64,000 nt of DNA from Stenotrophomonas sp. Marseille-Q4652 (GTDB lineage: Bacteria > Pseudomonadota > Gammaproteobacteria > Xanthomonadales > Xanthomonadaceae), in NCBI RefSeq assembly GCF_916618915.1, contig NZ_CAKAKE010000001.1, forward strand, positions 3,083,001 to 3,147,000, read 5' to 3'. The notes under the pieces are model-generated. The model saw only the letters and a program-made list of their open reading frames with translations, was not told where the DNA came from and searched no databases. Positions 7,116 through 42,147 of this stretch are shown here, one piece after another. A program made the position numbers and the translations under genes. The number at the start of each line of letters is the position of its first letter. Position 1 is the stretch's first letter.

Positions 7116-7798
7116 TCGCCACCGCCAACGGTTTCTTTCGCCACCTCGATGCCGGCAAGTGGGCCGACATCGGCCAGGCCACGATCGACACCCTGCTGAT
7201 GCTGGCCGGCTCGCTGCCACTGACCATGGCCATCGGCCTGCCGCTGGGCGTGCTGCTGTTCCTGACCGGCTCGCCGCAGCTGTACCGCCGGCCGGCGATC
7301 TACGGCGCGCTGGCGCTGGTGGTGAACCTGCTGCGTTCGGTGCCCTTCATCATCCTGATGATCGTGCTGATCCCGGTCACGCTGGCAATGATGGGGACCT
7401 CGCTGGGCGTGCGCGGCGCGATCCTGCCGCTGGTCGTCGGCGCCGCGCCGTTCTACGCGCGCCTGGTCGAGACTGCGCTGCGCGAGGTCGACCGCGGCGT
7501 GATCGAGGCCAGCCAGGCGATGGGCGCCACCACCGCGCAGCTGGTGTTCAAGGTGCTGCTGCCCGAGGCTCGCCCGGGCCTGATCGCCGGTGCCACCGTC
7601 ACCACCATCGCCCTGATCGGCTTCACCGCGATGGGTGGCGCGATCGGCTCCGGTGGCCTGGGCGACCTGGCCTTCCGCGACGGCTACCAGCGCTCGCACA
7701 CCGACGTGGCCCTGGTCACCGTGGTGCTGCTGCTGGTGCTGGTGCAACTGCTGCAGATGCTCGGCGACCGCCTGGTTGCGCACTACACGCGCAAATAA
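7112..7798 (+). CDS. metI: Methionine ABC importer, permease MetI
   Basis: A 228-aa inner-membrane permease with about five hydrophobic segments. The cytoplasmic EAA-type coupling loop reads [26 protein letters not shown], which docks onto Met[19 protein letters not shown] near the end is strongly conserved in MetI. Translation is coupled to metN by the ATGA overlap. The next gene, metQ, follows after 69 bases, so the three form one operon. Confidence 0.92.
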
Positions 7799-33928: not shown

Positions 33929-35758
<1,830 letters not shown>

Positions 35759-35911
35759 ACCCCAAGCGCCGTCGCCGCCTGCAGGCGCAGGCCGGCGACG
35801 GTGATCGGCCGGCATTTGGATGCCATGGAGAGGCAGTCCCGCGAGCCGCCGGCGCCGTGGGCGTTGTGCCACAATCCGGCGGCACGGCAGGCAGTAGCAG
35901 GATTCCCGGAT

Positions 35912-37369
35912 TTGACCACGACATCATCCACGACCACCCCGTCGCTGTTCTCGGTCGTGCCTGCCGGCATCTTCGGCCCCCTCGCATCGCCCAACCGCGA
36001 GCATTACTGGTCGCTGCTGTGCCGGCTGTTCGAGGAGTTCTTCGGCCCGGACGCGCCGGTGCCGCCCAGCCATGGCTTCCCGCGCCGCGAGATCACCGCC
36101 GCGTTCGAGCGCTACCTGCTCACCGATGATCCGTGGGAAGACGAGGACGGCCAGGCCCCCGATGCCTCGCTTAACACCCGCGCCAACGCCATCCACGAGC
36201 GCTTCCGCCTGGCCGGCTGGCTGCGCCAGGAGCGCATCGGCGCGCGCGAGATGGTGTCGATGCCTCCGGCGGTCACCCAGCTGCTGTCCACCCTGGTGGA
36301 GTTCAGCGAGCACGGGCCGACCTTCCTGTCGGCCAAGATGCGTTCAATCGAGCTGCAGCTGCAGCAGGTCAGCGAAGGCCGCGCCGATGGCGGCACCCTG
36401 GACGAGGCCGCCGACCAGGCGCGCCGCCTGCTGGTGTCGCTGTCGTCGATGAGCCTGCAGGTGCGCGACCTGATGCCGGAACTGAGCAAGGCCGAGACCA
36501 CGGCGCAGTTCGCGCGGCAGTGGTTCGAGCGCTACGTCAGCCAGCTGTTCATCGGCGACTACGCCGAACTGCACCGCGCCGACCATCCGCTGGCGCGGCG
36601 CAGTTCGATCCTGGCGATGGTGCAGCAGCTCGAAGCCGGCCCGCGCCGGCAGGAACTGTCGGCGTGGTACGCCGAGCACGCTGGCAACGGCGATCCGGCG
36701 CGCGCGCAGGCGCGGCTGGCGCGCAGCCTGTCGCGCCTGCGTGAGCTGGAACGCATCGACGAATACCTGGCCCGGCTGGACGAGGACATCCGCCAGGCCA
36801 ACCGCCGCGCGCTGGCCTTCCTCGACTACCGGCTGCGCGCGCCGGACCGGCTCGACGTGCTGCTGCGCCGGGCCTGCCGCGGCGTGCTCACCGCCAGCGA
36901 GGACGCGTTGCGTCTGCCCGTCGCGGCCGGCCCGCTGATGGACGAGAGCCGCCTGCGCGCACCGCACCGCAGACCGCAGCCGATCCCGCGCAGCGCCAAT
37001 GCCACCACCCCGCCCACTCCCGAACAGCTGGCGCGGCTGGCGCTGCTGCGGCGGATGAAGCGCGCCCGCCTGGTCAATGCCGAGGACATGGCGCGCTACG
37101 TCGGTCGCCACCTTGGCGACGGCGATGGCATCGATTCGCGCGAGCTGGCGATCGCCAGCATCGAGGACCTGCGCGCCTACCAGACCCTGCTGACCCTGGC
37201 GCTGCGCAGCCACCGCGTCGGCGGCCTGCGCCGCGAGGATCCGCTCGGGCGCCTGCTGCGCGGCTTCCGCGTGGAGCTGCTTGACGACGGCGACCACGAC
37301 AACGATTACCTGCGCGGCCCGCGCTTCCAGATCCGCCGGGTCGCGTCCACTGCACGGAACACCGCATGA
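35912..37369 (+). CDS. MksF/JetA-like kleisin subunit of an SMC-type complex
   Basis: A 485-aa alpha-helical protein that I assign to the JetA/MksF (MukF-like) family from its sequence character and position as first gene of a JetA-JetB-JetC order. It starts around LFSVVPAGIFGPLASPNREHYW, followed by winged-helix-like N-terminal segments, long charged helices (KMRSIELQLQQVSEG, ARLARSLSRLRELERIDEYLARLDEDIRQANRRAL) and a C-terminal part with PEQLARLALLRRMKRARLVNAEDMARYV. The start is uncertain: TTG 35912 has AGGA nine bases upstream, whereas ATG 35825 would add a non-conserved leader containing a CACAAT motif. The stop overlaps the next start as ATGA. Confidence 0.75.
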   Translation: MTTTSSTTTPSLFSVVPAGIFGPLASPNREHYWSLLCRLFEEFFGPDAPVPPSHGFPRREITAAFERYLLTDDPWEDEDGQAPDASLNTRANAIHERFRLAGWLRQERIGAREMVSMPPAVTQLLSTLVEFSEHGPTFLSAKMRSIELQLQQVSEGRADGGTLDEAADQARRLLVSLSSMSLQVRDLMPELSKAETTAQFARQWFERYVSQLFIGDYAELHRADHPLARRSSILAMVQQLEAGPRRQELSAWYAEHAGNGDPARAQARLARSLSRLRELERIDEYLARLDEDIRQANRRALAFLDYRLRAPDRLDVLLRRACRGVLTASEDALRLPVAAGPLMDESRLRAPHRRPQPIPRSANATTPPTPEQLARLALLRRMKRARLVNAEDMARYVGRHLGDGDGIDSRELAIASIEDLRAYQTLLTLALRSHRVGGLRREDPLGRLLRGFRVELLDDGDHDNDYLRGPRFQIRRVASTARNTA

Positions 37370-37992
37370 AACGCAGCTGGAACACCCTGAGCCAGATGTC
37401 CAACGGCACCTATGCCGTGCAGGACTTCGAGCGCGCCGCCTACCGCCTGGCCACCGAGCAGGTGCTGTACGCCTCTGATCCACGTTCGCGCGTGGCCTAC
37501 CACCTGGTCGAGGACCACCTCGCCGACTTCACCGCCGCGCTGGAGCCGCTGGGCATCCGCCTGGAGCGCAACGCACACTACCGCTACGTGGTGGCGCTGC
37601 CAGCCCATGGCGAAGGCGTGCCGGTCACGCTGGACGAGACCCTGGCCCTGCTGGTGCTGCGCCAGCGCTATGACGAGGCGATGCGCCAGGGCCTGATCGA
37701 GGACGGCGGCGAAGTCGTGGTCGAGCTGCCCGAGCTGCAGGAAAGCTGGCTGGCGCTGACCGGCCGCGGCATGCCCGACGTCGGCGCACTGCGCACGCTG
37801 GCGCGCACGCTCAAGCGCTGGGGCGTGTGCCGCCTGGTCGACTCCGAGGGCGATGACCCGCAGCCGTTCCATCTGCGCGTGCGCCCGGCCGTCGTCGAGA
37901 TCGTCGGCGAGCAGTGGCTGCAACGGCTGGACCAGCACAACCGCGACGACGACAGCGAAGTGACCGAAGAGGACGACGATGCAGCTGCTTGA
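37366..37992 (+). CDS. MksE/JetB-like (DUF4194) subunit
   Basis: A 208-aa protein of DUF4194 type, the MukE-like partner of the kleisin. AAYRLATEQVLYA near the start, a beta-rich centre, TLDETLALLVLRQRYDEAMRQG, and TLARTLKRWGVCRLVD give the winged-helix pattern. The acidic C-terminus (DDDSEVTEEDDD) is typical. It overlaps the kleisin gene by four bases and the SMC gene by 14 bases (37979-37992), so the three subunits are made in a coupled way. Confidence 0.8.
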   Translation: MKRSWNTLSQMSNGTYAVQDFERAAYRLATEQVLYASDPRSRVAYHLVEDHLADFTAALEPLGIRLERNAHYRYVVALPAHGEGVPVTLDETLALLVLRQRYDEAMRQGLIEDGGEVVVELPELQESWLALTGRGMPDVGALRTLARTLKRWGVCRLVDSEGDDPQPFHLRVRPAVVEIVGEQWLQRLDQHNRDDDSEVTEEDDDAAA

Positions 37993-40900
37993 ACGTATCC
38001 ACCTCGTCCAGTTCTTCCTGTTCGAGGCGCAGAGCCTGCAGCTGGACCCGACCAGCGCGATCATCGCCCCCAACGGCGCCGGCAAGAGCGCGCTTCTGGA
38101 CGCGCTGCAGATCGTGCTGCTCGGCGGCGACCGCAGCCGCATCCGCTTCAACGCACAGGCCGGCGGCAGCCATCGCGCGCGCACCATCCGCGACTACTGC
38201 CTGGGCGTGTTCCGCAGCGGTGACGAAGGCCGCAAGCGCCGCACCGCCACCACCTACATCTCGCTGGTGTTCCGCGACCAGGAGAGTGGCCAGCCGCTGA
38301 CCGTGGGCATCGCCCTGGGGGCATCGGCCGACGAGCCAGACCACCGCGTGCACGGCCTGTACCTGCTGCCGGGCGTCGCGCTGGAACTGGACGAGCACCT
38401 GGAACACGTCAACGGCAAGGAACTGCCGCTGGCCTGGAACAGCTTCCGCGAGCTGATCGCCCGCCGCTGCAAGGAAGCCGGCGAGAAGCCCGAGCTGCAC
38501 ACCGCCAGCGAGCGCTTCCTGCGCGACCTGCTGACCCGCCTGCGCGCCAGCCCGTCGGCCACGCCGGACATCAACGCCTACCGCAAGGCCTTCCTCAACG
38601 CGCTGAACCTGCAGCGGGTCGAGGACGTGGACCTGTTCGTACGCACCCTGGTGGCCGAGGACCGGCCTACCGACATCGCCCGCTTCCGCGCGCTGCTGGA
38701 CAGCTTCCGCCAGATCATGGTCAAGATCGAGCAGGTCAAGCAGCGCATCGAGTCGGCCGAAGGCGTGGAGCGGCAGTACGCCAAGGTCGCCGCGCAGGCC
38801 GCACGCGCGGCCTCGGCGCGCGCGCTGGCGGCCGAGTACGCCCGCGACCTGTACGGCGAACAGCTCGACCAGGCCGAGGCCGACGTCGCCAGCGCCGAAA
38901 CCTACCTGGCCGACACCCGCCGTGCGCTGGCTGATACCCGCGTCGAGCGCGACACCCTGCGCGAGGAACACGGCCGCGCCAACGCACGCCTGCAGGGCAC
39001 CCAGGGCTATGGCGAACAGGCCCAGCTCGACGAGCTGGCAGGACGCGACCGCGAGCGCCTGGCGCAGCTGAAGAAGGACCTGCTGCGCGAAGTCGGTTTC
39101 GTGCGCGAGCAGTTCCGCCAGGTGCAGGCGCTGGGCCTGGACAGCATCGACGTCGACGCGCTCGATGCCGCGCGCCAGGAATGGGACGTGTGGCATGCCG
39201 AGCTGTCGGCGCTGGCCGCCGAAGACGCGCTGCCGTGGACACCGGAGCAACTGTTCGCGCGCGCCCGCCAGGCCGTGCAGGCGGTCGCCCCGCTGCGCGA
39301 GGCGGTGGATCGCCACGCCCGCCAGTGCCATGCCATCCACGACAAGGCGCGCGACGCGCTGGCCACCGCGCGGCAGAACCAGAAGCGCCTGGCCGCCGGC
39401 CAGGCCGAACTCAACCCCGACACCGTGCGCTTGATGAGCTACCTGCGCGAGGAGGGCATCGACGCGCGGCCGGTGTGCGACCTGGTGCGGGTCACCGACA
39501 GCAGCTGGCAGCACGCGATCGAAGGCTACCTGCGCAGCAACGTCGAGGCGCTGCTGATCCCGGACAAGGACGAGGAGCGCGCGGTGAGGCTGTACCGCGG
39601 GCTGTCCGGCGGGCGCTCGGTGTACGGCGTGAAGCTGGCGCTGTCCAGCCACGCGCGCAACTCGCGTGGTGCCGACAAGCCGGCCGAGGGCAGCGTTGCC
39701 GCGCTGCTGGAAGGCGTCAACGCCGATGCGCTGGCCTTCCTGCGCCGGCAGCTGGGCGAGCTGCGCTGCGTGGACACCGAGGCGCAGCTCGTCGCCAGCC
39801 GCCAGGGCCTGACCCGCGACGGCCTGCTGGCCCGCGGCGGCAGCATCGAACGCCTGCGCCTGCCGGCGGCCGGTGACCTGCGTATCGGTGCGTCGGACAA
39901 CCGTGCGCGCCTGCGCGTGCTGCACGAGGAAATCGAATCGGCCGAGACCGCGCTGCGCCAGATCGAGCCGCAGCTGCGTCGTGCCGACGACTGCCAGCGC
40001 GGCCTGGCCCGCCTGGCCGACGCCGATGCGGTGGCGCAGTCGCTGCACGAGCGCGCACTGGAGCACCGCCAGGTCGGCGAGCGTTACCGCAGCGGCCAGC
40101 AGAGCCGGCAGGCGGCGCTGGATCCGGACCTGCTGCGCCTGTCCGAAGCGGTGCGCGAGCTCGGCCTGCAACTGACGGCCTGCGAACAGCGCGCCGATGC
40201 GCTGGTCGGCCAGGAAGCGGTGGCCGCAGCGACGCTGGAGCGCGCCCGTGCGCTGTTCGAAGGCCTGCGCCAGCAGGAAGAGCTGATCGCCCGTCGTGCG
40301 GTGGAAGCCTTCGCCGATGCGGACGTGGACCCTAACCGGGTCGAACGCCAGCGCGAGGAGCTGGACGAGAAGTATCCCTCGCTGGAAGAACGCGCCCAGC
40401 GCTGTGAGGAACGCGCCCGTGACGCCGACGCGCAACTGGCGCGGCTGCTGCCCGAGGCCTGGAGCGCGTTGGCGCAGTATGCCCGCGACCATGGCCTGGA
40501 GCTTGATTTCGAAGCGGCCGACTGGCGCCCGGCCAGCACCCTGCTGCAGCGCGAGCTGACCCAGCTGCGCGACACCGAGCTGGTCCAGTACGACGCCGAG
40601 GCCAAGCAGGCCTACGCTACTGCAGTGGAGACCTTCCGTTCCGGCGTGGCTTCCACGCTGTACGACAACTTCACCCGGCTCAAGGCGCAGATCGCCACGC
40701 TCAACCGCACCCTGCGCGCCAGCCCGGTGTTCTCCAACAACGAGCGCTACCAGTTCCATTACGAGGTGGTGCCCGAGTTCCGCGAGCTGCACCGCTTCAT
40801 CCAGCGCGCCGCCGACGTCGGGGGCGAGGACAACCTGTTCGGCAGCGCCGGCGAGGTGCCGGAGGCCTTCCGCGCGCTGGTCGAGGACAAGGTCAGCGCC

Positions 40901-41410
40901 AGCACGGCCAGCTCGCCGCTGGACGACTACCGCCGCTTCTTCCGCTTCGAGGTGCAGATCCGCCAGGACGAGCGCGTGGTCGGCAGCCTCAGCGAGCGCA
41001 TGCGCTCGGGCTCCGGTGGCGAGCACCGCGCGCCGCTGTACGTGATCGCTGGCGCCGCGCTGGCTGCGGCCTACGGCAAGACCGAGGCACAGCCCGGCGG
41101 CATGGGCCTGATCCTGCTGGACGAGTTCGGCGACAAGATCGACGCGCAGAACGCGCGTGCCACCACCAACTACCTGCGTTCGCTGGGCCTGCAGCTGGTG
41201 GTCGCCGCGCCGGATACCGCGCAGGGCACCCTGTCGGGCGTGCTGGACAGCTACATCGAGCTGTTCCGCGATGGCGACCTGCTGCAGGCCGAGCGCATCG
41301 AGGTCACCCAGGCCGCGCGCACGCTGCTGCTGTCCGACCAGTTCGACCTGCACCCGGAGTTGCTGGTCGAGGAAACCGCGCGCATTGAACGTGAGCAGGC
41401 GGTGACCTGA
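37979..41410 (+). CDS. MksB/JetC-like SMC ATPase
   Basis: An 1143-aa SMC-superfamily ATPase. Walker A APNGAGKSA is at residues 30-38. Two long coiled-coil arms (about 240-420 and 640-900) flank a hinge-like region (about 470-620, around VTDSSWQHAIEGYLRSNVEALLI). The C-terminal ATPase half has the signature GSGSGGEHRAPLY near 1010 and Walker B GLILLDEFGDKID near 1040. This is the MukB-like short type found in MksB and in Wadjet JetC. It would use ATP to extrude DNA loops. No JetD/MksG TOPRIM nuclease gene follows: the next gene, gloA, runs convergently after 95 bases. Confidence 0.88.
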   Translation: MQLLERIHLVQFFLFEAQSLQLDPTSAIIAPNGAGKSALLDALQIVLLGGDRSRIRFNAQAGGSHRARTIRDYCLGVFRSGDEGRKRRTATTYISLVFRDQESGQPLTVGIALGASADEPDHRVHGLYLLPGVALELDEHLEHVNGKELPLAWNSFRELIARRCKEAGEKPELHTASERFLRDLLTRLRASPSATPDINAYRKAFLNALNLQRVEDVDLFVRTLVAEDRPTDIARFRALLDSFRQIMVKIEQVKQRIESAEGVERQYAKVAAQAARAASARALAAEYARDLYGEQLDQAEADVASAETYLADTRRALADTRVERDTLREEHGRANARLQGTQGYGEQAQLDELAGRDRERLAQLKKDLLREVGFVREQFRQVQALGLDSIDVDALDAARQEWDVWHAELSALAAEDALPWTPEQLFARARQAVQAVAPLREAVDRHARQCHAIHDKARDALATARQNQKRLAAGQAELNPDTVRLMSYLREEGIDARPVCDLVRVTDSSWQHAIEGYLRSNVEALLIPDKDEERAVRLYRGLSGGRSVYGVKLALSSHARNSRGADKPAEGSVAALLEGVNADALAFLRRQLGELRCVDTEAQLVASRQGLTRDGLLARGGSIERLRLPAAGDLRIGASDNRARLRVLHEEIESAETALRQIEPQLRRADDCQRGLARLADADAVAQSLHERALEHRQVGERYRSGQQSRQAALDPDLLRLSEAVRELGLQLTACEQRADALVGQEAVAAATLERARALFEGLRQQEELIARRAVEAFADADVDPNRVERQREELDEKYPSLEERAQRCEERARDADAQLARLLPEAWSALAQYARDHGLELDFEAADWRPASTLLQRELTQLRDTELVQYDAEAKQAYATAVETFRSGVASTLYDNFTRLKAQIATLNRTLRASPVFSNNERYQFHYEVVPEFRELHRFIQRAADVGGEDNLFGSAGEVPEAFRALVEDKVSASTASSPLDDYRRFFRFEVQIRQDERVVGSLSERMRSGSGGEHRAPLYVIAGAALAAAYGKTEAQPGGMGLILLDEFGDKIDAQNARATTNYLRSLGLQLVVAAPDTAQGTLSGVLDSYIELFRDGDLLQAERIEVTQAARTLLLSDQFDLHPELLVEETARIEREQAVT

Positions 41411-41449
41411 GACCGGTGCGCGTCACTGGTTGACGCGCGCCGGGAAGAC

Positions 41450-41498
41450 GGTGATGCCGGCCATGCAGGCATCACCGCGGCCACGGGATTCCCGTGGC
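41450..41498. terminator. Two tandem hairpins between convergent genes
   Basis: GGTGATGCC/GGCATCACC (41450-41476) and GCCACGGG/CCCGTGGC (41480-41498) are perfect stems of 9 and 8 bp between the SMC gene and gloA. Neither has a T-run, so they may act with Rho or as mRNA 3' ends rather than as classical terminators. Confidence 0.5.
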
Positions 41499-41505
41499 AC
41501 CGCCA

Positions 41506-42030
41506 TCAGCGCTGGGTGTTGGAGATGATCTCCACCCAATAGCCGTCCGGGTCCTTGATGAAGGCCAGGTTCTTCATGCGGCCGTCGGTCAGGCGCTTCT
41601 GGAACGGCACGTCCAGCTGCTCGAAGCGGGCACAGGCGGCCTCGATGTCCGGCACCGACACGCAGATGTGGCCGAAGCCGCGCGGGTCGCTGTTGCCGTC
41701 GTGGTAGACCTTGCCGTCCTGGTTCTCGGTGCCGTGGTTGTGGGTCAGCTCCAGCACGCCGGGGATGCCGGCCATCCACAGTCGGCGCTCTTCATCGCCG
41801 GCCGGGATGCGGGTGCCTGCCGGCAGCAGGGCCAGGAAGTACAGGCTGAACTCGGCTTCGGGGAAGTCGCGGTGGTCGATCAGCTGGAAGCCGAGCACGC
41901 GGGTGTAGAAATCCAGCGAGGCGCGGATGTCCTTGACCCGCAGCATGGTGTGGTTGAACACGAAGCCGGTGGTTTCGGCCGGCGGCTGCGCAGCCACGCC
42001 GGGCTGCTGGCGGATGGCATCAAGGCTCAT
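41506..42030 (-). CDS. gloA: Lactoylglutathione lyase (glyoxalase I)
   Basis: A 174-aa metalloenzyme that converts the hemithioacetal of methylglyoxal and glutathione to S-lactoylglutathione. The metal ligand regions are FNHTMLRVKD (His), LELTHNHG (Glu), GFGHICVSV (His) and YWVEII (Glu). The long ENQDGKVYHDGNSDPRGFGH loop marks the longer glyoxalase I class, which includes Zn-activated enzymes such as the human one, rather than the short Ni-type E. coli form. ATG 42030 (MSLDAIRQQ) is chosen over an upstream Arg/Pro-rich extension. Confidence 0.93.
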   Translation of the reverse strand: MSLDAIRQQPGVAAQPPAETTGFVFNHTMLRVKDIRASLDFYTRVLGFQLIDHRDFPEAEFSLYFLALLPAGTRIPAGDEERRLWMAGIPGVLELTHNHGTENQDGKVYHDGNSDPRGFGHICVSVPDIEAACARFEQLDVPFQKRLTDGRMKNLAFIKDPDGYWVEIISNTQR

Positions 42031-42147
42031 CACGGTTTCCTTCAATGGGGGATGGCCAATTCTAGGTGCGCGGCGCGGATGTCGCACCCGCGGTGCCCTG
42101 TCTGCGGCATTCCCGCCGCCGACACGCGGACGGCGGCGGGAGGCGGC

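Follow-up and report, generated by a model that had tools for sequence, protein, structure and literature searches.

The locus examined here raises the question whether a three-gene structural maintenance of chromosomes (SMC) operon without a nuclease gene is a resident chromosomal condensin or the remainder of a Wadjet anti-plasmid system. The operon lies at positions 35912–41410 of a 64,000-nucleotide stretch of the Stenotrophomonas sp. Marseille-Q4652 genome (the window, numbered from its first letter), and a sequence-only reading had left both answers standing while naming the genes after MksF, MksE and MksB. The three overlapping genes for a kleisin-like, a DUF4194 and an SMC ATPase subunit described in that reading were borne out by plus-strand open reading frames and by profile matches far above chance. 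Thus, jetA (35912–37369, TTG start) encodes a kleisin subunit of 485 amino acids (aa), jetB (37366–37992, overlapping jetA by 4 bases) a KITE subunit of 208 aa, and jetC (37979–41410, overlapping jetB by 14 bases) an SMC ATPase of 1143 aa. The operon is a Wadjet type I core that lacks JetD; the kind of system is known, while its state is unusual and recurrent.

All three products matched Wadjet type I profiles with high scores. JetA matched PF18982 (DUF5716) at 177.6 bits compared to a cut-off of 26.2 (E-value 4e-52) and the PADLOC model JetA1 at 785 bits; JetB matched DUF4194 at 78.7 bits compared to a cut-off of 32.7 (E-value 5.5e-22) and JetB1 at 329 bits. JetC matched JetC1 at 1668.9 bits, besides the Pfam families SbcC_Walker_B and AAA_29, and its Walker A (APNGAGKSA), signature (SGSGGE) and Walker B (LDE) motifs were intact. 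The closest structures in the PDB to the JetB model (predicted local distance difference test, pLDDT, 88) were JetB of Pseudomonas aeruginosa PA14 and of the Escherichia coli JetABC complex (8dk1, 8as8), followed by MukE. The JetA model was of low confidence (pLDDT 70.7, predicted template modelling score 0.39) and matched MukF and JetA chains at low template modelling scores. Sequence searches of the PDB gave nothing for JetC alone and nothing for a JetD profile, and a JetC profile matched JetC of 8dk1 weakly. No match to DUF3375 (MksF) or PF21980 (MksE) was found in the window proteins at E ≤ 0.001, whereas both were matched by proteins of a locus from another Stenotrophomonas genome (L251). 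The name MksF-MksE-MksB was therefore given up: the subunits are a PF18982-type JetA with JetB and JetC, and the DUF3375-type MksFEB operon, which was read in two further Stenotrophomonas genomes, is distinct from them. A RecN- or SbcC-type repair ATPase, an identity of the 1143-aa protein that would have spoken against the sequence-only reading, was rejected because the ATPase comes with kleisin and KITE partners whose genes overlap its own.

Compared to Wadjet type I (JetABCD), the locus showed the same JetA, JetB and JetC profiles, predicted JetB fold, gene order and gene overlaps, and its relatives carry jetD directly after jetC; it differs in lacking jetD, at the locus as well as genome-wide, so that anti-plasmid activity is not expected. 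MksBEF of Pseudomonas aeruginosa likewise combines a kleisin, a KITE protein and an SMC ATPase without a nuclease, alongside Smc-ScpAB, but the window JetA belongs to PF18982 and not to DUF3375, and the loss of jetD is a separate one, with jetD-positive relatives in the same genus. MksBEFG (EptABCD) of Corynebacterium and Mycobacterium has the same class of SMC core and keeps the TOPRIM nuclease MksG. MukBEF shares the kleisin-KITE-SMC architecture, and MukF and MukE are among the structural matches of the JetA and JetB models, but MukBEF replaced Smc-ScpAB, whereas the window genome has both Smc and ScpA.

The absence of jetD was shown both at the locus and genome-wide. JetD_C (PF09983) had no match in the 3.35-Mb, two-contig genome (G000), and neither had profile A1, built from 20 JetD proteins of Xanthomonadaceae, at E ≤ 0.01; a JetD or MksG gene elsewhere in the genome, which would have spoken against the sequence-only reading, was thus not found. 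Between the jetC stop and the convergent gene gloA there was no trace of jetD. An overlooked, diverged JetD was rejected after A1 had been searched in 247 genomes and in plus-strand frames over 1.6 kb past jetC. Pairwise comparison with genome G233 showed similarity up to the jetC stop, resuming within gloA, with no jetD between in the window; in G233 and in Stenotrophomonas daejeonensis (G221) jetD lies between the jetC stop, where it begins, and gloA. Three relatives of the same genus have the order jetABCD-gloA, from which the window differs by exactly jetD. Among the seven Stenotrophomonas genomes with this operon, jetD stood beside jetC in four (G221, G233, G256 and G266) and was absent from G000, G263 and G289. 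Of the two alternatives left by the sequence-only reading, these results support the Wadjet-derived complex with a lost nuclease, since relatives have jetD at this very site, and contradict the resident MksBEF-type condensin. Judged from sequence, the operon is probably a Wadjet type I JetABC core from which jetD was deleted and which would have been retained to extrude loops in the manner of a condensin, free of a nuclease.

Loss of jetD was found to be recurrent. In a survey of 247 Xanthomonadaceae genomes (JetC threshold E ≤ 1e-10), JetC was present in 37, with intact JetD beside it in 20 and without it in 17; leaving out eight distant JetCs, 17/29 genomes lack intact jetD. A scan of named genomes, from which the best 73 of a larger number of loci were kept, placed 49 loci in the JetC clade of the window (58–88% JetC identity) and 24 further away. 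Within the clade, jetD was present in 32 loci, absent from 15 and fragmentary in two, i.e., 17/49 have no intact jetD; for one of the 15 (L115) the contig stops 1.5 kb past jetC, and there another gene starts at +99. All 24 more distant loci among these best 73 have jetD sequence, truncated at a contig end in two of them and split in another. The family and named sets overlap in 21 loci with identical JetC. On an IQ-TREE tree of JetA, JetB and JetC from 58 loci, the 24 without jetD formed 16 maximal clades, and jetD fragments were present in three of these. Fitch parsimony with gains allowed gave 14 changes of jetD state on this tree compared to a mean of 18.8 with shuffled labels, so that jetD-less tips are somewhat clustered. 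JetD and JetC distances agreed in 30 jetD-positive loci (Mantel r 0.71, reached in 0/2000 permutations), which favours co-inheritance and loss over repeated gain. The genes downstream of jetC differed among jetD-less loci and none of them consistently took the place of jetD; replacement of jetD by another gene was rejected on this ground.

Remnants of jetD were detected in three loci, covering JetD profile positions 2–108 and 361–395 in G117, only 2–30 in Pseudoxanthomonas mexicana (L102), and 13–47 and 140–394 in Luteimonas FCS-9 (L142). Graded states were present within Pseudoxanthomonas: jetD is intact in G206, gutted in G117 (587 bases from jetC to the next gene), nearly gone in P. mexicana (199 bases) and gone in P. 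dokdonensis/G191 (139 bases). The next gene is common to G206, G117 and G191; that of P. mexicana has the same length (679 aa). This series represents states rather than a single line of descent, P. dokdonensis being a separate loss on the tree.

Sequence comparisons showed that jetABC stayed under purifying selection after the loss. JetA, JetB and JetC are full-length and open in the jetD-less loci of the clade, except for jetA of L123 and genes cut by contig ends, and the Walker A, signature and Walker B LDE motifs are invariant in 24/24 jetD-less JetCs. Pairwise ratios of non-synonymous to synonymous substitution (dN/dS), which are rough in absolute terms at this high G+C content and are compared relative to each other, were 0.03–0.09 for JetC in nine jetD-less pairs, several of them from one clade and not independent, and 0.03–0.13 in ten jetD-positive pairs (an 11th was dropped as it contained one sequence twice). 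For JetA they were 0.035–0.157 in eight jetD-less pairs compared to 0.039–0.099 in jetD-positive pairs. Codon branch models gave post-loss values in four sets of 0.066, 0.046, 0.054 and 0.040 for JetC, of 0.112, 0.037, 0.055 and 0.060 for JetA, and of 0.090, 0.035, 0.074 and 0.191 for JetB. The JetC branch of the window itself had a dN/dS of 0.093 compared to 0.069 elsewhere (twice the log-likelihood difference, 2ΔlnL, 2.5), and the four jetD-less tips of the Stenotrophomonas group jointly had 0.068 compared to 0.073. On jetD-less branches, transitions included, the P. japonensis set showed no change in the ratio, and the Lysobacter and Arenimonas sets had lower values. General relaxation of the jetD-less proteins was rejected by comparing invariant columns both ways. 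Among columns invariant in 34 jetD-positive proteins, 21/148 in JetA, 6/64 in JetB and 28/328 in JetC varied in 23 jetD-less ones (about 29/164, 10/72 and 45/365 with the jetD-positive set reduced to 23 rows); the reverse comparison gave 45/172, 27/85 and 81/381. JetA residues 69–72 (DDPW) are kept in 34/34 jetD-positive proteins, and they are altered in five JetAs of the P. suwonensis group (L085, L125, L126, L128 and L137) and at one residue in G181. This lead from one clade makes DDPW a possible JetD-related surface.

These results suggest how such a core might persist. JetABC most likely acts as a dimeric, ATP-driven loop extruder on DNA, and without JetD plasmid cutting would be gone while DNA loading and loop extrusion would be kept. 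We propose that small plasmids would then be tolerated, because complete extrusion of a small circle would have no cutting outcome. In keeping with such tolerance, the second contig of the window genome (20,959 bases; L259/L260, G000:C2) encodes an ArdC-type protein and MqsR/MqsA and contains a stretch similar to plasmid DotA/TraY genes; it is perhaps a plasmid, circularity being unsupported by its ends, which have no terminal overlap. Loss of a costly or self-harming nuclease could be favoured where plasmids help the host. The extruder would be retained for an effect on chromosome organization or segregation alongside Smc-ScpAB, as MksBEF is in Pseudomonas aeruginosa, and within Stenotrophomonas it may take the place of the MksFEB-type operon of most other species.

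The distribution of accessory condensins in the genus was also examined. The window genome has ScpA at G000:C1:621846, an Smc frame of 1187 aa at 829953–833396, and a single DUF4194 gene, the window's own. DUF4194 was found in 60/61 Stenotrophomonas genomes, the exception being a fragmented assembly with pieces of jetA (G260). Seven genomes (G000, G221, G233, G256, G263, G266 and G289) have only the window type (78–82 bits), and the other 53 have a high-scoring type (140–166 bits), besides which three have a third type. Two high-scoring operons were read: that of G029 (L251, 6151–11930) consists of DUF3375, DUF4194/MksE and SMC genes beside folE, and that of G163 (L252) contains DUF3375 and an SMC-type ATPase. 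JetD_C had no match in the 10 genomes with the high-scoring type that were covered. Across the family, with the high-scoring type defined by a 90-bit cut set after the list had been seen, the two types occurred together in 1/37 genomes compared to 8.4 expected (hypergeometric P = 4e-4, ignoring kinship). Such complementarity would be expected if one accessory condensin had replaced the other, and it may reflect few events. It is tentatively proposed, as rather less likely than not, that Wadjet cores were repeatedly and recently converted to chromosomal condensins in Xanthomonadaceae and their kin by the single step of jetD loss, and that such a core replaced the resident MksFEB-type condensin within one branch of Stenotrophomonas.

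Several observations weigh against retention of the core as a condensin-like extruder. The complementarity of DUF4194 types is uncorrected for phylogeny, and a single replacement or a small number of them may account for it. Not all of the family has the operon, which is present in 37/247 genomes, and its gene tree mixes genera, from which it follows that the operon also moves horizontally. JetD sequence without window-type JetC occurs in four family genomes, intact in G232 and as fragments in G021, G169 and G213. The intact JetD lies at 7377–8690 of L067, within a 19-kb stretch that has no window-type jetA, jetB or jetC match; the JetD fragments without jetC lie in L068, L069 and L070. In the distant jetD-positive set, L157 has a jetA frame of no more than 272 codons, and in L159 jetD is divided between two frames; in some places, then, genes other than jetD are damaged as well. 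Within the clade, jetA of the jetD-less X. massiliensis locus (L082/L123) is apparently frame-broken, possibly by sequencing error; it is the only damaged core gene among the jetD-less loci there. Some ratios are also raised: JetA dN/dS reached 0.157 in one jetD-less pair compared to at most 0.099 in jetD-positive pairs, and post-loss JetB reached 0.19 in the Arenimonas/Thermomonas set. On jetD-less compared to other branches, transition branches being counted as jetD-less, the Stenotrophomonas set including P. dokdonensis showed 0.083/0.060 for JetC (2ΔlnL 8.4) and 0.090/0.052 for JetA (9.8), and the P. suwonensis set 0.072/0.029 for JetC (20.8) and 0.109/0.025 for JetA (15.9). All these values are far below 1. 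Finally, the JetB N-terminus is reported to contact JetD in a different type I system; jetD-less proteins keep it unchanged, so no loss of JetD docking is visible.

This last point bears on a first alternative, in which JetABC would still handle plasmids without its own nuclease, by binding or compacting small circles and lowering their copy number or segregation, or by borrowing a nuclease, which could be a host enzyme of another kind or a JetD brought in by a different element. Conservation extends to JetB, its N-terminus included, and to most of JetA, as if JetD could still be bound. JetD sequence was also seen in other settings: besides the intact JetD of G232 with no window-type jetABC beside it, a JetD_C match adjoins a second DUF4194 gene in jetD-less G136, and a weak hit to A1 (31 bits) lies elsewhere in jetD-less G053. 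However, a JetD_C match is missing in 16/17 jetD-less family genomes, that of the window included, and no downstream gene consistently takes the place of jetD. According to PMC10586767, plasmid transformation of Bacillus subtilis is blocked only if all four subunits are present, and the window genome itself carries the 20,959-base plasmid-like contig. Continued plasmid handling is considered rather unlikely.

A second alternative, that the operon is a dead relic whose costly jetD was lost too recently for jetABC to have decayed, appears quite unlikely. It would be in line with the 'probably inactive' label given to a jetD-less operon of S. maltophilia in PMC11680222, with the mild relaxation on some jetD-less branches, with the apparently broken jetA of L123 and with the JetD fragments without jetC in G021, G169 and G213. 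Against it, five jetD-less loci of the Pseudoxanthomonas group are separated by JetC synonymous distances of up to 0.75 at a JetC dN/dS of 0.04–0.09, JetC motifs are invariant throughout the jetD-less set, and post-loss JetC dN/dS was 0.04–0.07 in all four sets with post-loss branches. Besides, 16 losses of jetD in the clade compare to one broken jetA and no broken jetB, in loci ascertained on jetC. That the operon is a resident MksBEF-type condensin which never had a nuclease is very improbable: its three-gene form in an apparent core-gene neighbourhood and its coexistence with Smc and ScpA would suit such an origin, but the proteins belong to the Wadjet JetA1/B1/C1 families with PF18982 instead of DUF3375, jetD stands at the site in relatives and as remnants in others, and JetD and JetC distances agree.

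The upstream neighbour glmS (33929–35758, plus strand; SIS and GATase domains) ends shortly before jetA, as the sequence-only reading had described, and lies outside the complex. The special tie to glmS claimed there was not supported: not all relatives have glmS next to the operon, and those that do may carry jetD or lack it. Downstream, the absence of a fourth gene was confirmed: the 3′ end of gloA (41506–42087, minus strand; glyoxalase domain and synteny, start codon uncertain) lies at 41506, 95 bases past the jetC stop. This junction (41411–41505), identified as the jetD site by comparison with G233, contains strong hairpins (folding z −5.1 over 41405–41525) and is perhaps a two-way terminator; no canonical T-tailed terminator was found there, and a scan for consensus promoters and terminators found nothing. 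The G+C content of 0.70–0.72 across the operon falls within the 0.63–0.73 of the window, which agrees with the earlier observation that there is no island-like composition break, and the atp operon, glmU and glmS around it resemble a core-gene neighbourhood, judged by eye from the open reading frames. When the start codon nearest to the window's position was taken for each locus, the TTG start of jetA was found at the matching place in six other Stenotrophomonas-group loci, with ATG in G212 and GTG in Luteimonas L135.

In several genera jetABC(D) was observed directly or closely 3′ of glmS (window 35759–35911; L135, L136, L142, L126, L123 and L255). Since Tn7 has its attachment site past glmS in other bacteria, this region may be an insertion hot spot. 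Plasmid-borne loci were also seen: a 316-kb Salipiger plasmid (L261; NZ_CP014597.1, 86000–98000) carries jetABC with no jetD listed beside jetC, and the locus tags skip a number there, which suggests that a gene, perhaps a broken one, is missing from the list. At three further plasmid loci (L262, L263 and L264) jetD is listed, and an IS3 element lies inside jetC of L263.

Parts of this picture have been published. An origin of MksBEF from JetABCD by loss of JetD was suggested in a review, and PMC7485682 describes SMC and MksBEF as both serving chromosome organization and segregation in Pseudomonas aeruginosa. A conserved jetABC without jetD is reported for S. maltophilia in PMC11680222; that 'Wadjet I' is alike in its gene content and genus, but it is most likely a DUF3375-type operon, as judged from other genomes of the genus. 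PADLOC models label the MksFEB-type proteins of G029 as JetA1/B1/C1, which may explain such reports of Wadjet I lacking jetD. What is new here is the recurrence of jetD loss together with retained selection, which was not found among the matches listed in our literature search, most subscription journals lying outside it.

The results bear on the open question of how defence SMC complexes and chromosome condensins interconvert. About 16 natural cases are now available, with closely related jetD-positive and jetD-less loci; in some cases these belong to a single genus, in others jetD is half deleted. They allow a direct test of the role of JetABC on the chromosome after loss of the nuclease. 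They also argue against dismissing calls of 'incomplete Wadjet' in genome surveys as inactive. If the interpretation is true, the transition from defence to housekeeping that has been proposed for MksBEF would be found here in many natural replicates, together with their jetD-positive relatives.

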